Virus record (IMG/VR): IMGVR_UViG_3300032222_000314
Location: 1 to 23,688 of that record
Source of the DNA: a virus
DNA: 23,688 nucleotides
Reading direction: 5' to 3' (one strand)
Part shown: positions 5,067 through 14,309 of the stretch, one piece after another
How positions within the stretch are numbered: the first letter of the stretch is position 1
How the letters are laid out: each line of letters opens with the position of its first letter
Translations under genes and position numbers: made by a program
The notes under the pieces: model-generated
The model's database searches: none
The model's input: only the letters and a program-made list of their open reading frames with translations
What the model was told of the DNA's origin: nothing

Positions 5067-5582
5067 ATGGCAAGAATTTCAGATCACCCAGTAAGGCTTG
5101 CGAGGCTTAGATCGTCGATGACACAAGCTGAGCTAGCCAAGCGTGCAGGGGTACAAAGATCAGCCGTGACAGCAATAGAAGATGGACGTACTAAGAAACC
5201 ATCTGAAGCCGTATTAGCCGTGCTTGCACAGGCCATAGGTATATCGCTGCCGGATCTAGAACTAGACATCAAGACATGGCAAGCAAAGCCTGCTACGCCT
5301 GATGTGCGTCCTGCTGTAGCTAATTTAATGACCATACCGCCATACGTATTGGGACAGTACTACAAGTCCTTTGTACAGTGGCGCAAAGAGATCGCACCAT
5401 CCCCGACCGCACTAGCGTCGCTACTTAGGCTCAATGCAGCCGTGGTATCTCGCTACGAAGCCGGCGACTACAAACGTGGTATGCCGGAAGTGCTGTCATC
5501 CAAGCTCCTTAAGTCCTTCGGGCCTTACGGATTAACAACCGAATACATACTAGAACTGGAGAAACTACCCGCACATGAGTGA
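5067..5582 (+). CDS. Tandem XRE-type HTH transcription regulator
   Basis: A 171-residue protein. Residues 10-65 are a typical Cro/CI (XRE) helix-turn-helix: RLARLRSSMTQAELAKRAGV, then QRSAVTAIEDGR and a closing ALAQAIGI-like helix. A second, more divergent HTH appears at about 111-150 (PTALASLLRLNAAVVSRYEA), so the protein may bind two half-sites by itself or through a dimer. No peptidase (LexA/CI cleavage) domain is present. AGGAG stands six bases before the ATG. It diverges from the leftward small-gene block and starts the rightward operon, the usual seat of a phage switch regulator. Target DNA is probably the ATGCATGT pair upstream. Confidence 0.85.
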   Translation: MARISDHPVRLARLRSSMTQAELAKRAGVQRSAVTAIEDGRTKKPSEAVLAVLAQAIGISLPDLELDIKTWQAKPATPDVRPAVANLMTIPPYVLGQYYKSFVQWRKEIAPSPTALASLLRLNAAVVSRYEAGDYKRGMPEVLSSKLLKSFGPYGLTTEYILELEKLPAHE

Positions 5583-5856
5583 ATTTAGCGAAGCATTAGA
5601 TAACAAATTTGTTGAAGCACAAGGTCTATTACTAAAGAAACACAAAGACTACGGACCGAAGAATATCTCACAGAGCCCTGGTGGCGCTGTTAACGGATTG
5701 CGCGTGCGTATGCATGACAAGCTTGCAAGGATCAACCACCTGTATGACAACAAAGTAGATCCTGAAAACGAGAGCTTCAGAGACAGCTTCATTGACCTAG
5801 CTAACTATGCGATCATCGGTCTCATGGTTATCGATGGAGATTGGCCGAATGAGTAA
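5575..5856 (+). CDS. DUF1599/Nmad1-like small protein
   Basis: A 93-residue protein with HKDYGPKNI (23-31), GLRVRMHDKLARI (41-53) and ESFRDSFIDLANYA (66-79). This order, K-D-Y-G ... D-K-x-x-R-I ... E-S-x-x-D-x-x-x-D-x-x-x-Y, is that of the DUF1599 / nucleotide-modification-associated domain 1 group, whose acidic helices recall all-alpha MazG-type NTP pyrophosphatases. A role in nucleotide handling is therefore likely, but the substrate is unknown. The ATG overlaps the end of the HTH gene by eight bases (ATGAGTGA), so translation is coupled. Confidence 0.75.
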   Translation: MSEFSEALDNKFVEAQGLLLKKHKDYGPKNISQSPGGAVNGLRVRMHDKLARINHLYDNKVDPENESFRDSFIDLANYAIIGLMVIDGDWPNE

Positions 5857-7751: not shown

Positions 7752-7880
7752 ATGCCAGTCGTAAACGGAAAAGAATTTCCTTACACCAAGAAGGGTAAGG
7801 CAGCTGCTAAGAAAGCCGCTGTTAAGGCTACTCGCAAGAAGAAGTTTTCTGGCGTAAAGTCTCAAGTATACGGAGGCTAG
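7752..7880 (+). CDS. 42-aa basic peptide with VNGKEFPYTKKGK start
   Basis: MPVVNGKEFPYTKKGKAAAK followed by KAAVKATRKKKFSGVKSQVY and GG. Start ATG 7752 comes two bases after the previous stop; GGTAAG is the only ribosome-site-like sequence, so coupling is likely. The V-N-G-K-x-F/Y-P-Y-T-x-x-G-K opening followed by Lys/Ala repeats looks familiar from small phage proteins of unknown role (recalled, not searched). Very basic, so nucleic-acid binding is likely. Confidence 0.7.
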   Translation: MPVVNGKEFPYTKKGKAAAKKAAVKATRKKKFSGVKSQVYGG

Positions 7881-7881
7881 T

Positions 7882-8058
7882 ATGGCTACCGAGGTAGAGG
7901 TATCTGTAGAAACTCCCGAAGACAAAAAAGCGGAGATGAAAGAAGACGAGAAGAAGAAAGCCGCTAAGAAGGCTGCTTTGAAAACTCTACTTAGCTTAAA
8001 AGATTTAAAAAGCGAAACAGCATTGACTGCTTTGCTTGATCTAATTGAAAAAGACTAA
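7882..8058 (+). CDS. 58-aa charged helical protein
   Basis: MATEVEVSVETPEDKKAEMK, then EDEKKKAAKKAALKTLLSLK, ending DLIEKD. The first 15 residues are acidic, the middle is Lys-rich and the last third is an amphipathic Leu-rich helix. GGAGG five bases before the ATG gives a very strong start. It keeps the KKAALK element of the preceding genes, but is nearly neutral overall. It could pair with the basic neighbours. No family is known to me. Confidence 0.7.
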   Translation: MATEVEVSVETPEDKKAEMKEDEKKKAAKKAALKTLLSLKDLKSETALTALLDLIEKD

Positions 8059-8067
8059 CGCTTAAGC

Positions 8068-8691
8068 TTGAAAATAAATCTCAAAGACGTAGAGATTATT
8101 TACATAAATTTACCTAACTATGTAAATAGGAATAAGTCAATGATTAATATGCTTGAGCATTACGGTTTAAAATATAAAAGAGTTGATGGCATTGTTTCTG
8201 GTAATCAGGATTATGACATTATTGCTGATGCGCACAGAAAAGCTTTAGATTTTTCTTCAGCTGAGCAAGTTCTTATTCTAGAAGACGATTGCATTCCTTA
8301 TATCTATAGAGAAGAGTTTGATGTCCCCGATAACGCAGACATTGTTTATTTAGGTTTGCATGGGTACGAGCACGGTAAAGAGAAAGTCTCTAAAGAAGTG
8401 TGGAAAATTTTTAAAATGATTGGAGCACACGCTATTTTATATTTAACCCAGCAAGGTAAAGATATTCTCAGAGAAGCCCAGCAATTAACTAAAGATAAAA
8501 AATACGGATTTGATGATGGCCTGGCTGAGCTTCAGCATAAAGTTAATACTTACGCGTTAAATAGCCCTATTTGGTATCAAAAAAATTACCCAGAGCTTAC
8601 TAAGTTTAACTTAGGCGAAGTGGAAAACGTAACTTTTGGTCACTATGGCGGAGGATGCTCAGACTACGAAGAGCCTATAGTCTTTAGTTAG
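8068..8691 (+). CDS. GT25-like glycosyltransferase
   Basis: A 207-residue protein with a TTG start at 8068 and a poor ribosome site. Residues 10-22 (IIYINLPNYVNRN), 71-75 (LEDDC) and 119-130 (GAHAILYLTQQG) follow the order of the glycosyltransferase family 25 (LPS-type sugar transferase) fold: INL...R, then the acidic E-D-D that binds metal and nucleotide sugar, then a GAHAY-like helix. Usual GT25 enzymes are somewhat longer, so the C-terminal lobe may be reduced. The gene is more A/T-rich than its neighbours, suggesting separate acquisition. It ends the rightward operon and overlaps the leftward 74-aa gene tail to tail by eight bases. It may glycosylate virion proteins or host surface; which is unknown. 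Confidence 0.65.
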   Translation: MKINLKDVEIIYINLPNYVNRNKSMINMLEHYGLKYKRVDGIVSGNQDYDIIADAHRKALDFSSAEQVLILEDDCIPYIYREEFDVPDNADIVYLGLHGYEHGKEKVSKEVWKIFKMIGAHAILYLTQQGKDILREAQQLTKDKKYGFDDGLAELQHKVNTYALNSPIWYQKNYPELTKFNLGEVENVTFGHYGGGCSDYEEPIVFS

Positions 8692-8908
8692 CTTCAGCTT
8701 CTTTTACAGCAGTCATTGCATTTGCAATGTGCGCTAATCCATTCATAATAACGTCTGCGGTATCGCAAGGAAAATCTACGGCGCAGTGAACACAGTTGCC
8801 TGGATCGTTATCATCTTCTGGCTTCTCAGGCGCGTGTATTGCATACACTGCATCTAGCGTGCCAAAGGTTAGTGCTAGTACATCATCGAATGTCGGGTTA
8901 AGGCTCAT
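8684..8908 (-). CDS. Small Cys-containing 74-aa protein
   Basis: MSLNPTFDDVLALTFGTLDA opens an acidic protein with CVHCAVDFPCDT at about 39-50, a C-x-x-C-x5-C-D-T cluster. Helical segments flank it. C-x-x-C...C-x-T clusters are common in small actinophage proteins and may bind a metal, though a fourth ligand is not obvious (the His within the cluster or the H at about 25 could serve). AACGGAGATACT gives a ribosome site. It is the last gene of the leftward late block and overlaps the glycosyltransferase end. Confidence 0.7.
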   Translation of the reverse strand: MSLNPTFDDVLALTFGTLDAVYAIHAPEKPEDDNDPGNCVHCAVDFPCDTADVIMNGLAHIANAMTAVKEAEAN

Positions 8909-8918
8909 AGTATCTCCG

Positions 8919-11900
8919 TTATGGGTTAGGGAACATGTTCTTTAGTGCTGCAGCTTGATCGGCTGACCATTGCTTTTCAGTCTGTGAGGTCTTGTAATCC
9001 TTTAGCTTCTGACCTGTAAGCCAGTTTATAATACTCCGGTCTGCTTTTTCTTTAATTTCATCTGGTGTCAGACCTGTTTCTGGCTGTCTTCCAATGCCAG
9101 TTACCTTAGATATTGTGTTAAGGCCACCAACCTGATCTATGGCATACTCTAGCGGATCTATGATGTTACCTCCAGTACCCACTCTATTGCCCGTAGAAAG
9201 CTCTGCAAACCACTTAGGCAGTGGCGATAGGTTCTGACCTGCAAGGTTCTGTGTGCCCTTTGTAACGGCGTCTAGGCCTGTTTCTCCTGGTTTTAGGGTA
9301 AAGCCACCAAACAAGCTGTTTAGGATGTCTAGCTGCGGGATAGCTGGACCAAAGCCCATAGCGTCACCCTCGCCCTTAGGGCCCTGGAACTGTGGACCAT
9401 ACAAGTTACCAGTGTCCCATGAAGCATACATTCCATCTGGATCCCAAGGATCTCCAAATGACTCCGGGTCAAAACCATTTGCTTCTGCAAACGCATACTG
9501 GATCTTAGAAGGTATGATAACAGCGCCTGGCTTTTCAATCATAAGACCAAATACTCTTGTCATTGCAATTCTTTGCCAGGTGTAGAAGAACACTGCGCGA
9601 CGCATGTACTTACGCTCGAATGCAGAAAGTCCACCAATTGTTGGGTGGTATGCTGCAACTTTCTGAGCAGCAGCAATTGCAGCTTCTTCAAATGACTTGT
9701 AGACGCCACCCTTTTCTAGTTCTTTAACAAAGTGAGCCATGCGGAAAATGTTGTCGCGGTGCGAGCTAAAGTTAGCAAGCTTGCCATTCATTCTGCTAGC
9801 TGCACCAATAAAACCATTTCTTAATTCGCCCATACCAATTAAGTCAAGGTCTTCTACGGTTGACTGTCCACCGCGAGTTAAAATTTGTAACTGCTCTGCC
9901 ATAATGGCAACTGCGCTGTTTGGAACAACAGTGCGCTTGCCGGTTAGCGCACTAACATAGCCAACTTTTCCAACAAAGTCACCATCTATTTTCATACCTT
10001 TTGGAGCTGACATTTGAATATAAGTGTTGAATAAGTTTGGATCACCTTTGTAAACAGAAGGGTCAAACTCAACCAGAATTTTAAATGCATTATCGTAATA
10101 CTTAGGACTGTTTACTCCTGCAAGAAGGTTCATTGAAGCTTCGCCAATAATTGATGTAACATGGTGGCCAAGTCTCCAGGTGGTGTGAGATGCTTTTAGG
10201 AATCTTGTGATACGGTCAGAGAAGTCAACAATTTTTTGCATACTTCCCTTGAATGACTTTTCGTAAGTAACGTATTTTTTTACATATTCAAAACGCTTTA
10301 ACTCTTCAGCGCTATAAAGCATGTTTGGATCAAGAAGTTTTCCAAACTCATCATTAGGATCTATCTTTTGCAAAGTGTTTAAGCTAATGCCTTCTGCCTT
10401 TGCGGCTTCAGCGGTGCGACCAAAGAAGCTACTGAAGGACTGTCCGATACCAATTCTTGTTTGTACGGCATGTAGAGCTGCTGAGTAATTACCCAAGAAT
10501 GTAAGTGCAGTAAATTTATCATCTAGTTCAGCGCTAGCCCATGAATACTTAACTGCAAGTGGGCCAAGGTCCTTGGCGTTTTCAAGGTTAATCTTGAAAG
10601 CCTTGCTGTCACCAATCTCCCAGAAACCGCGCATTCCAAACATTTTATTTAGTTCATCAGCAAAGTATGGCTGAGTAATAGATTTTGCCATCGTTCCGGA
10701 CTTACCAAACAATGCATCAACAAACGGGCGAAGATCTGCAACAATTTCCATGTTGATGCCTTCAGTTTTTGCAGTTACAAGCCATTCATCAAAGGTCTGA
10801 ATTGTACCGCCCTCTTCAAGTGCGTCAAGTACTGTTCGACCATGACGCTGTAAAAGACTAAACGCTTTATTTATCTCTACAATGTTTCTGTCGTATTTTT
10901 GCGCAAACGCGATTAGACAGTTATTGAAATATTGAGTTCGGCTTGTATTAACTTGTTCGATACCACCAATAACATTCTTTACGGATTTGCCCATTCCATA
11001 ACTGCCACTCATGGAAACCATGAAACCTTCACCTAGTTTCATCGCAGTTGCGTTCTTTGTAACAGTTGATGCAACGTTTTCTGCACCGGCACCCACTGGG
11101 TCATCGCTACCTGCAGCGTTGTTTGTCTTTATTGTTGAAACATCGTCTGGCCCATCAACTGCTTTTTCGATGTCTTTTGCAAGCTGGACATCATTCTTAT
11201 CTACGGCGCGTGAAACAAGAGTAGCCTCAGTTACAATGTCTTTTTTAACGCCTTCTCTTCGAGTGTTTTTTGCTTTAACAACTTTTTCTGGAGGAATATT
11301 TTGTTTAGGCTTGGCGTCAGAAATATCATCAACCATGTCTAGCTCAACACTCAAGCTTGATTTTGTATCTTCAATAAACTTTGTAATGTAGTTGTGCAAG
11401 TTGACGTAATCAACCTCGCCTAGATCTGCTATTTCAGGGCTAGCCTTTTTAGAAAGCAAGCTTTTCAGGAACATGTTCATTAAGACATCAAAAACATCTT
11501 CTGCAATTTCAGCGTCCTTAAAAACCTTTTTGTTTTTTCCTGTAGTTTGCAAAATACCTTTAAGGTTTGTCTTTATTGCATCTAGTCCGTCTTCTCCGCT
11601 TTTCAATGTTGCAAGAGTTGCATCATCAAGTCGTTTTCCAGATTGGGCAAGCTCTGTAACTCTTGCAGCAAACTTTTCCTTTATTCCAAAGAAGGTAACA
11701 AGAGTTGAAACCACTTCGCTAGCTACCGGAAGTATCTCGGCTTGACTCTCAGCCAGCCTTGCTGCTGCACGCGTAGCGTGCAATTGCATTAGATCATCGC
11801 CGCCGTCGACAATTAGTTTGACAGCTGCTTCTAATTTTTCGTTAAGTTTAGGAATTTTTCTAAGCTGTTTGCCCTGGCGGGTTTTGCCTGGATTTAAGTG

Positions 11901-14309
11901 TGCTGCTGGTGCAAATAATTCATTTACTGGAACTTTGGCTTTTGCTTTTACTCCAGAAGCTGGCTTAATGTACTGCTCATCAAGTGCTTTTCTAATTTCA
12001 AGCCAAGCTTCTGATCCAGGAGTAATCGGCTTACCTAGTTTGCGATATCTAGCGTAAGTACCCATAGCGTTTTCAAAGTTACTAGGCATTACGTTCTGGT
12101 AAGCGTTCCCAGGGAACCGCAGTGCGCCCATAACGTCGCCTTTACCGCTTTTTATAGCAAGCAGGGAAAGGTCGGCTAGTGTTACATCGAATTCAAGCGG
12201 AACAAAACCATCGCTTAGTTTATCTCCAATAAACTTTTTACCGTCACGGCGAACTTGCATTGGAAGGTTTTCTCTAAACCTTACTGGTACACCCAAGAAA
12301 CGGAAAATGTTGTCATAGAATCTAAGTAGTCGAGCCTCTTCCTCAACGGAGTCCCCAAGAGTACGTTGATTTTTTCCAACGTTTCTTTTTGTGCTAAGCC
12401 AGACTCTAGTAAACGCTTCAATTCTTGCCTCAGTATTTAGCATGTCTAAGCGAACGGCATCAGGTGAAAGCTTAAATGCTGGGTTATTGAGAATTGCAGT
12501 GTCGCCCTCAGATGCTCTAAATAGCACATCGTCAACAGTTATTCCAAGTTCTTTTGCAAGTCTCTTTACCTGATCAAGTGGCCCTACGTCAACCGACTCC
12601 TCAAGCAGTGTTTCTATGTTCATTGTGGCGGTGTTGCGGTTGCCCTTAAATATAAAATCAAAGTCTTCAGTAATCTGAGCTGCGTGTATTGACCTAAGGC
12701 TTGTCGCAACTTCCATAAGCTGCTCAGCGGTCCTTGAACCTACGTAGTTGGTTCCCCTACTTGAGGCCTCTAAAGCGCCATCAATGATAGTTGAAATTTC
12801 TTGCTCTACTTGCATAACCTCTTCTGCAATCGGCGCGACATCCTCTGGATCGGCAGCTTTTGTCACCACGGCGACTGCTTCCGGAGTGGCGTTTACACGA
12901 TCGCTGTCTAAGGCGTTTCTAAGCGCTTGTGCCTCTGCTTTGTACTGATCAATTTTGCTAGTTTTAGTTGTTACCCTCTTAGTTACTCTAGTTAGAGTCT
13001 TGTTAATTAGATCAACTTTTGACTGAGTTGGATCAGCAGAAACACCAAGAGTGTCAGCAATTTCATTAGTTTGATTTGCAGTAAGTTGAACCTTACCAAG
13101 TGATAAAGCTTCTACAAATTCGTTTATGTTTCTAAAGTTTTTGTTCTTACGCCTAACTGCAGCTGGGTCAATAATTGTCTTAGCAACGTCTTCAACGCCC
13201 TTTATTAACTGAACATCTTTACCTAAAGACTTTTCAGCTTTCTCAATAAGTTTTTGAACTTCAGCTTCTTCAGCAACTGCCCTATTAAGGTTTTTTCCTT
13301 CTTCAAGTATTGCCACAGTGTCAGGAGTGCTTTCAAGGCCTTTTGCGGTAGCCTCGGCAATCTTTGCGTCTTCAAACGCTTTAGCAACTGCGGCTGAGTC
13401 GGTGTACCTAAGATCCTCGGCCTTTGAAACTTTAGCAGCAGCTTTATCTGCCTTCTTAGCAAGCTTTCCTTTTAGATAAGGGCTTTCGCTAATTGTTTTC
13501 ATAAAAATATCTCTGTTTTCTTGCGCTAAATTATCAGCAATGCTTACCCTGGAATTTTTTCTTGTAGCGTCTAAAGCAGATAAAGTTTCCCTGGCAAGGA
13601 CAGCGTTTTCCGGATTTTTCTTTGCGTCTTTTTGGATCGCATTTGCAAGCTTTTGGTTAGCAATATCTGCAGCCCTGTTACTCTTGTTAAATTCATATCC
13701 ACGCAAAGCACCAGTTAAAAAGTTTCCTAGCTTCTGTCCTTGAGTAAGTGGTTCTACTTGAGGAACGTATGAACGAGCTATGTCTGGAATATTTTGTTTT
13801 GCTGCATCAAGGGCAGATTTTAAAACAACAGCGTTAGCTTTGTTTGCGTCTTTTGCTAATCGGACTCCACCGGCTAAACCTTTTACACCGGCAACAGTAC
13901 CACCAGTAATGTAAGTGGTTGGGTCAAGTCCAATGTCAAGCGCAAGGCCCAGCCAAGTTGAGGTAGTTGGATCAACACCGAGGTCTTTTAAGTTTGAACT
14001 GTATGTTCTTCTTTCCGTAACTCCTTTTGCAGCAGCGGGAAAAATAGAAAGCGGGTTAACTAGATCGAGAAGACCACCAAGATCACCACGCTGGATAGAA
14101 GAAATGTTTTCGCCAACTTTACGGGTAATACCCGCTGAGGCATAACCACCGGTTGAAAGAATGTCAATGATCGACTGACCAAGGTTCCAGGTACCGGCTT
14201 TACCAGAAGCGACTGAAGCTGCAGCATTAGCTGCTTCGGTATTAAAAGCGCCGGACGTTTTACCAGAAGCGCCGGCTAACGCTTTAAGTAATTCAGGGTT
14301 TAGGGCCAT
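8919..14309 (-). CDS. Very large virion-associated protein (1796 aa), putative internal/ejection protein
   Basis: The largest gene in the window, on the late strand after the nozzle gene. Start MALNPELLKALAGASGKTSG is set by AGGAT before the ATG. Residues about 60-150 contain hydrophobic Gly/Ala-rich segments (WLGLALDIGLDPTTYITGGT), about 200-480 is a Lys/Ala/Glu-rich coiled-coil region, the middle is mixed, and the last 400 residues alternate helices and short hydrophobic parts before an acidic/basic end. No lysozyme, transglycosylase or polymerase signature was recognised. Size, position behind the tail gene and the neighbouring Ala-rich coiled-coil protein fit podovirus internal virion proteins that are ejected into the cell to carry the DNA. 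An unusual minor structural protein is the alternative. Confidence 0.6.
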   Translation of the reverse strand: MALNPELLKALAGASGKTSGAFNTEAANAAASVASGKAGTWNLGQSIIDILSTGGYASAGITRKVGENISSIQRGDLGGLLDLVNPLSIFPAAAKGVTERRTYSSNLKDLGVDPTTSTWLGLALDIGLDPTTYITGGTVAGVKGLAGGVRLAKDANKANAVVLKSALDAAKQNIPDIARSYVPQVEPLTQGQKLGNFLTGALRGYEFNKSNRAADIANQKLANAIQKDAKKNPENAVLARETLSALDATRKNSRVSIADNLAQENRDIFMKTISESPYLKGKLAKKADKAAAKVSKAEDLRYTDSAAVAKAFEDAKIAEATAKGLESTPDTVAILEEGKNLNRAVAEEAEVQKLIEKAEKSLGKDVQLIKGVEDVAKTIIDPAAVRRKNKNFRNINEFVEALSLGKVQLTANQTNEIADTLGVSADPTQSKVDLINKTLTRVTKRVTTKTSKIDQYKAEAQALRNALDSDRVNATPEAVAVVTKAADPEDVAPIAEEVMQVEQEISTIIDGALEASSRGTNYVGSRTAEQLMEVATSLRSIHAAQITEDFDFIFKGNRNTATMNIETLLEESVDVGPLDQVKRLAKELGITVDDVLFRASEGDTAILNNPAFKLSPDAVRLDMLNTEARIEAFTRVWLSTKRNVGKNQRTLGDSVEEEARLLRFYDNIFRFLGVPVRFRENLPMQVRRDGKKFIGDKLSDGFVPLEFDVTLADLSLLAIKSGKGDVMGALRFPGNAYQNVMPSNFENAMGTYARYRKLGKPITPGSEAWLEIRKALDEQYIKPASGVKAKAKVPVNELFAPAAHLNPGKTRQGKQLRKIPKLNEKLEAAVKLIVDGGDDLMQLHATRAAARLAESQAEILPVASEVVSTLVTFFGIKEKFAARVTELAQSGKRLDDATLATLKSGEDGLDAIKTNLKGILQTTGKNKKVFKDAEIAEDVFDVLMNMFLKSLLSKKASPEIADLGEVDYVNLHNYITKFIEDTKSSLSVELDMVDDISDAKPKQNIPPEKVVKAKNTRREGVKKDIVTEATLVSRAVDKNDVQLAKDIEKAVDGPDDVSTIKTNNAAGSDDPVGAGAENVASTVTKNATAMKLGEGFMVSMSGSYGMGKSVKNVIGGIEQVNTSRTQYFNNCLIAFAQKYDRNIVEINKAFSLLQRHGRTVLDALEEGGTIQTFDEWLVTAKTEGINMEIVADLRPFVDALFGKSGTMAKSITQPYFADELNKMFGMRGFWEIGDSKAFKINLENAKDLGPLAVKYSWASAELDDKFTALTFLGNYSAALHAVQTRIGIGQSFSSFFGRTAEAAKAEGISLNTLQKIDPNDEFGKLLDPNMLYSAEELKRFEYVKKYVTYEKSFKGSMQKIVDFSDRITRFLKASHTTWRLGHHVTSIIGEASMNLLAGVNSPKYYDNAFKILVEFDPSVYKGDPNLFNTYIQMSAPKGMKIDGDFVGKVGYVSALTGKRTVVPNSAVAIMAEQLQILTRGGQSTVEDLDLIGMGELRNGFIGAASRMNGKLANFSSHRDNIFRMAHFVKELEKGGVYKSFEEAAIAAAQKVAAYHPTIGGLSAFERKYMRRAVFFYTWQRIAMTRVFGLMIEKPGAVIIPSKIQYAFAEANGFDPESFGDPWDPDGMYASWDTGNLYGPQFQGPKGEGDAMGFGPAIPQLDILNSLFGGFTLKPGETGLDAVTKGTQNLAGQNLSPLPKWFAELSTGNRVGTGGNIIDPLEYAIDQVGGLNTISKVTGIGRQPETGLTPDEIKEKADRSIINWLTGQKLKDYKTSQTEKQWSADQAAALKNMFPNP

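Follow-up and report, generated by a model that had tools for sequence, protein, structure and literature searches.

A predicted GT25-like glycosyltransferase gene carried as accessory cargo in a variable slot of an environmental phage

Results

A glycosyltransferase-like gene at the edge of a strand switch

The stretch of DNA analysed here in its entirety (hereafter the window) is virus record IMGVR_UViG_3300032222_000314, a fragment of 23,688 bases. It contains an uninterrupted frame of 207 codons, opened by TTG, whose features and surroundings are collected in Table 1. The motifs that a first-pass annotation had picked out of this frame, INL...R, LEDDC and GAHAILYL, were all found, the arginine at R21 and LEDDC at residues 71-75, and the gene does lie at the edge of a strand switch, overlapping a convergent minus-strand open reading frame by 8 bp. 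The frame is confirmed as a real gene, and a chance frame is excluded because its product matches the phage protein family PHROG 24091, finds counterparts in 10 phage records, and is 69% identical to the protein of another virus contig (locus L007), with a dN/dS of about 0.18 between the two (pN 0.18, pS 0.60). Judged against this one close relative, the gene is shown to be under purifying selection.

Table 1. Positions of the glycosyltransferase gene, its motifs and the adjoining genes in the window
Feature	Position	Strand	Basis
Left slot flank, conserved Lys-rich 42-aa gene	7752..7880	+	Found at 16/28 slot loci by tblastn
58-aa Lys-rich gene in slot	7882..8058	+	88% amino acid identity to L193 1234-1407
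Predicted GT25-like GT-A glycosyltransferase gene	8068..8691	+	207 aa, TTG start, open frame; PHROG match, relatives, predicted fold
INL, residues 13-15, end of second predicted strand	8104..8112	+	First 75 columns align with cyanophage GT25 set (hhalign)
IADAH, residues 52-56, in place of GT25 GE-GC..SH	8221..8235	+	GC absent, H kept
EDD, residues 72-74, presumed metal / nucleotide-sugar site	8281..8289	+	Invariant in 32/32 sequences of A2; role putative
GAHAILYL, residues 119-126	8422..8445	+	A2 alignment
D149, candidate catalytic or binding Asp	8512..8514	+	Invariant in 32/32 sequences of A2; role putative
C-terminal YGGGxxDY, residues 193-200	8644..8667	+	Also in L007; YHGGGISDY in L211; by eye
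Right slot flank, conserved 74-aa gene, convergent with the glycosyltransferase gene	8684..8908	-	28/50 records at E<=0.001

The gene had also been described as A/T-rich and of foreign composition. Its overall GC content is indeed low (0.349, against a mean of 0.466 for the 13 other window genes of at least 400 bp; z -5.6), and none of 302 overlapping coding segments of 624 bp is as low, whereas its third codon positions are ordinary (GC3 0.317, z -1.7), with 20.5% of the same segments equally low. Because GC3 is ordinary, composition is a weak argument for acquisition, and we rejected it as proof of recent arrival. The TTG start, proposed as a further sign of late gain, stands in the alignment where relatives begin with ATG, but a non-ATG start recurs in L007, L008, L033 and L211 as well as in the window, compared with 1/28 other nonredundant relatives (starts were assigned by rule, and L211 was grouped by similarity only). 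A non-ATG start is therefore a trait of the clade, and a poor start was likewise rejected as a mark of recency. The claim of a poor ribosome site held up, as nothing resembling a Shine-Dalgarno run stands before the TTG (AAAGACTAACGCTTAAGC). A promoter scan, which found 8 sites where 4.3 (sd 2.0) were expected, placed no promoter-like site between 7882 and 8068.

The gene occupies a variable slot between conserved neighbors

Comparison of gene order with related phages shows that the glycosyltransferase gene is accessory cargo. It closes a plus-strand block and lies in a slot of changing content, framed by two conserved genes that converge on each other. None of the 16 contig stretches that carry both flanking genes contains the glycosyltransferase. 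In seven the slot is empty (L177, L179, L180, L184, L185, L186, L201), in three it is filled by a 289-aa gene without a Pfam match (L178, L181, L182), and in six by small genes (L183, L187, L190, L191, L193, L204). The closest empty site, L186, matches the window in nucleotide sequence at 88% identity in the 42-aa gene and at 80% in the opposite flank. More broadly, no glycosyltransferase match at E<=0.01 was obtained in the 28 stretches with the 74-aa gene, where the window's own locus was positive, and none was found, with a query that does detect the window, in 44 IMG/VR contigs encoding a related capsid protein, many of them fragments. Late acquisition, which the first-pass annotation had argued from composition, start and position at a strand switch, is thus supported on other grounds, because related sites are empty or differently filled. 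By this comparison of occupied with empty slots among related phages, one copy of PHROG 24091 is pinned as cargo.

Across these phages the slot contents vary from nothing, through the 289-aa gene, to rows of tiny Lys-rich genes. Among 290 loci, the 58-aa gene upstream of the glycosyltransferase matched L193 alone besides the window itself; in L193 this gene (88%) is succeeded by one of 36 aa, in the position that the glycosyltransferase holds in the window. A gene of 35-38 aa (MPY-F-KWAYKK...) recurs in the slot of several relatives (about 1409-1520 in L193, the 235-342 region of L169 for L183, and 2137-2253 in L190 and L191) and is replaced by the glycosyltransferase in the window. The alignment with L193 is only suggestive that the bases just before the TTG may be a remnant of the start of the displaced 36-aa gene.

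Relatives in cyanophages and probable actinophages

The match of the window protein to PHROG 24091 (E 2.4e-25) runs from residues 1-174 to positions 1-186 of the 238 in the profile, covering most of the protein and placing it in this family. A weaker match to the glucosyltransferase family phrog_2835 (E 0.0015) is shared with its relatives, 19 of 32 members of alignment A2 (31 nonredundant relatives plus the window; L211 lies outside it) matching at E<=0.001. By tblastn, the 10 phage records, 4 of Prochlorococcus phages, 4 of Synechococcus phages and 2 of marine viruses, are 29.7-33.3% identical over 83-86% of the query, and those examined are Kyanoviridae. Extending the search with the proteins of L011, L033 and L007 gained only S-T4 and weak rows that are not phage glycosyltransferases. 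Two of these cyanophage proteins in PHROG 24091, P-SSM2 PSSM2_269 and S-CAM7 C490910_187, share with the window protein the same start, EDD and a HAIL-Y-type motif, but are only 29-32% identical to it (alignment A1) and retain GC..SH.

A scan of IMG/VR viral contigs with the single window sequence gave no match; relatives were reached by an alignment-based scan, which returned 180, and among the best 80 of these the closest is L007 (IMGVR_UViG_3300032268_000572), which shares the TTG start, an IADxH motif and the C-terminal YGGGxxDY. Repeating the scan with the window's clade as query returned 291 relatives, the best 80 of which include L211 (35% identity over residues 1-207). In a tree of 69 rows, the window joins L007, L008 and L033 with support of 97/96, and the window and L007 pair at 100/99; long branches leave the outer placements of this tree unsure, and its bootstrap is not fully settled. 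A further alignment (A6) contained non-GT25 proteins and was excluded. Relatives were confirmed in 2 of 214 candidate stretches of bacterial genome contigs. These two, L205 and L206, come from a Rhodobacter MAG and a Prochlorococcus single-cell genome and are possibly phage DNA. A literature search on phage glycosyltransferase family 25 found nothing on this gene in titles or the openings of abstracts.

The capsid and tail genes of the window resemble those of a different group of phages. The capsid protein is 23.5-38% identical to those of 14 phage records (8 Arthrobacter, 2 Microbacterium, 1 Cellulosimicrobium and 3 uncultured), and for a tail-type protein of 544 aa there are 11 matching records, from the same three named genera, Arthrobacter, Microbacterium and Cellulosimicrobium; from these similarities we infer an actinobacterial host. 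The tail-type genes are followed by a gene for a 1796-aa protein (8919-14309, minus strand) with only a sub-threshold Pfam match, and a very long gene stands at that place in Arthrobacter phage Jasmine too. L007 is another phage, as only one other of the 26 window proteins matches its 16.6-kb locus (43%). A gene beside its glycosyltransferase has a counterpart of 58.7% identity in Actinomycetia phage DSL-LC01, the L033 terminase is 75% identical to that of the same phage, and L033 and L211 share the gene order terminase, glycosyltransferase, 166-aa gene. WhiB-like proteins were found by pattern search at 8 of 31 nonredundant loci. No annotated glycosyltransferase was seen in the two stretches of DSL-LC01 examined, nor in the stretch examined of Gordonia phage GodonK, though a glycosyltransferase of the latter appeared in the viral fold library described below. 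As far as sequence similarity and gene context go, PHROG 24091 thus has members in T4-like cyanophages and also in actinophages.

A predicted GT-A fold close to GT25, with one motif missing

The window protein had been called a GT25-like glycosyltransferase. It has no match to the Pfam GT25 family (PF01755) at E<=10 and hence falls short of the curated cut-off of 24 bits, but 16 of the 32 A2 members match at E<=1 (best 3.2e-5). Among cyanophage proteins scanned early, P0001 and its near-copy in L002 (E 0.016) and P0002 (E 0.00054) stay below the cut-off, a true cyanophage GT25 (P0004) matches at 3.3e-12, and the relative at L004 has no match. A Pfam GT25 search of 19 related records gave none, and as the controls were equally without one it is uninformative. 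Profile-profile alignment with hhalign against a cyanophage GT25 set, three near-identical sequences comprising P0004 and two near-copies, gave a probability of 97.4 for A2 (E 1.2e-11, 75 columns) and 94.3 over 116 columns for the four-member clade. The link in sequence between the window protein and GT25 thus runs via relatives and a short profile alignment only.

Structure prediction, suggested in the first-pass annotation as a check, yielded an AlphaFold2 model with a mean pLDDT of 88.1 and a pTM of 0.88. The predicted fold is GT-A, and its nearest structures are of GT25; the outcome named in the annotation as refuting, a fold lacking a site for a nucleotide-sugar, was thus not seen in the prediction. 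Foldseek against the PDB ranked human COLGALT1 first (E 8.7e-7) and also matched mimivirus R655 (E 7e-6); VIA-align likewise placed COLGALT1 at the top (Z 16.5, rmsd 2.5, 169 residues), with R655 (9crz) as the first other chain (Z 13.7, rmsd 2.8 over 158 residues). In a viral fold library, 25 of the best 50 listed matches were named family 25. By sequence, no solved chain matches the window protein at E<=10, and the family profile reaches one, R655, only at E 0.012; R655 also differs in being a larger protein, 14% identical, from a virus of eukaryotes.

COLGALT1 and the P-SSM2 GT25 protein PSSM2_271 share with the window protein the predicted GT-A fold, the INL strand and EDD, and the EDD of COLGALT1 aligns with that of the P-SSM2 GT25. 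The acidic triad of GT25 is therefore present, and it belongs to the positions invariant in all 32 sequences of A2: Y12, EDD 72-74, P87, D91, L95, G96, H121, Y125, D149, A153, P167 and Q171 (H121 is replaced by T in L211). Of the three motifs that alignment finds in both P0004 and COLGALT1 (INL, GE-GC..SH and EDD), the middle one is missing from the window protein, which is also shorter than GT25 and keeps only the H of this motif. At the C-terminal motif the model is of low confidence, with residues 191-199 under 50. The predicted fold, the relatives and the invariant EDD uphold the first-pass name, while strict GT25 membership fails for lack of a Pfam match and of GE-GC. On this model and these alignments, the protein is a GT25-like GT-A enzyme and not a filed GT25 member.

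The GE-GC part is degenerate in L007, L008 and L033 as in the window, which raises the prospect that the fold has been kept and transferase activity lost. We consider such a loss improbable, as the invariant positions, EDD and D149 among them, are retained and the gene evolves under constraint, though the low dN/dS is by itself no proof of catalysis.

Discussion

Glycosyltransferase genes are common in phages. We propose, with a probability of about 0.75, that the window gene encodes a GT-A glycosyltransferase of GT25 type, carried as accessory cargo, and that in the infected cell this enzyme would link one sugar to some acceptor. The gene would be transcribed with the plus-strand block and expressed late; its product would take a host nucleotide-sugar as donor, presumably with the help of a metal, and transfer a single sugar to the acceptor inside the cell. 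PHROG 24091, a family of phage proteins that had no assigned function, would thereby gain a likely role as an enzyme.

As to the acceptor, our guess puts a virion protein slightly first, although still tentatively, because the glycosyltransferase ends a block of otherwise small late-type genes, which is a weak reason. Glycosylation of mycobacteriophage virions by phage glycosyltransferases has been reported (PMC12363180, PMC12619734). We can speculate that a short GT25-like family moves between unrelated actinophages and cyanophages as cargo of a single gene, and that in the present Arthrobacter-phage-like lineage it sugars a virion protein in the way COLGALT1 sugars collagen; phages that differ in nothing but one slot would then bear differently sugared particles. 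We regard this larger picture as rather unlikely in full. If the acceptor is a virion protein, the slot would amount to a natural with-and-without experiment on the sugar coat of an environmental actinobacterial phage; otherwise, the gene is one more phage glycosyltransferase. A hydroxylase partner, in the manner of lysyl hydroxylase and COLGALT1, was sought and rejected as unsupported: apparent 2OG-Fe(II) oxygenases were seen by eye near L004, L007 and L008, but Pfam yields nothing at E<=0.05 for the one at L007, no 2OG-Fe(II) family appears within two genes of the 31 relatives among the best 25 of 37 families listed, which reach down to one-member ones, and PF13640 was absent from 19 records (control positive in 2/14).

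The genes around the relatives favor the glycosyltransferase reading and bear on a second acceptor. Within two genes of the 31 nonredundant relatives (117 proteins) we counted GT6 15 times, epimerase 13, GT2 8 and GT25 6, compared with epimerase 7, GT25 3 and GT11 2 in 117 proteins sampled from the 203 genes at a distance of five to eight genes; nearby genes are richer in glycan functions than more distant ones. The same enzyme might act on the host envelope, on a wall glycan or lipoglycan, where the sugar would block other phages or spare progeny from binding to debris. Cyanophage relatives lie beside nucleotide-sugar epimerases and several glycosyltransferases, and L011 (7213-9957) and L027 (7276-9970), both WhiB-bearing, carry a row of GT2, GT25-like, Gb3-type glycosyltransferase and methyltransferase genes, as would suit oligosaccharide building. 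Glycosyltransferases are carried by phages of freshwater Nanopelagicales (Planktophila), for which prevention of superinfection and protection of DNA are described among the proposed roles (PMC10202952). However, such clusters could serve virion glycosylation, and whereas glycan genes cluster around the P-SSM2 family member, the window copy is solitary amid small Lys-rich genes, within a 23.7-kb fragment outside which partners may lie. We see an envelope acceptor as a realistic possibility, if one short of even odds, and an acceptor other than virion, envelope or DNA as an outside chance.

Glycosylation of modified bases in phage DNA, which would block host nucleases, appears less probable still. 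Besides the protective role proposed for phage glycosyltransferases (PMC10202952), it draws on a window gene (5575-5853, plus strand) for a DUF1599 protein, 'nucleotide modification associated domain 1' (30 bits, cut-off 25), and on a neighbor of the L027 family member that weakly matches TAGT, below cut-off. Against it, a gene of the thymidylate-synthase family (PF00303) was found in none of 19 records, the window's being a fragment, where the control was positive in 9 of 14 genomes, and the same DUF1599-type gene is seen, by eye, in relatives that have no glycosyltransferase.
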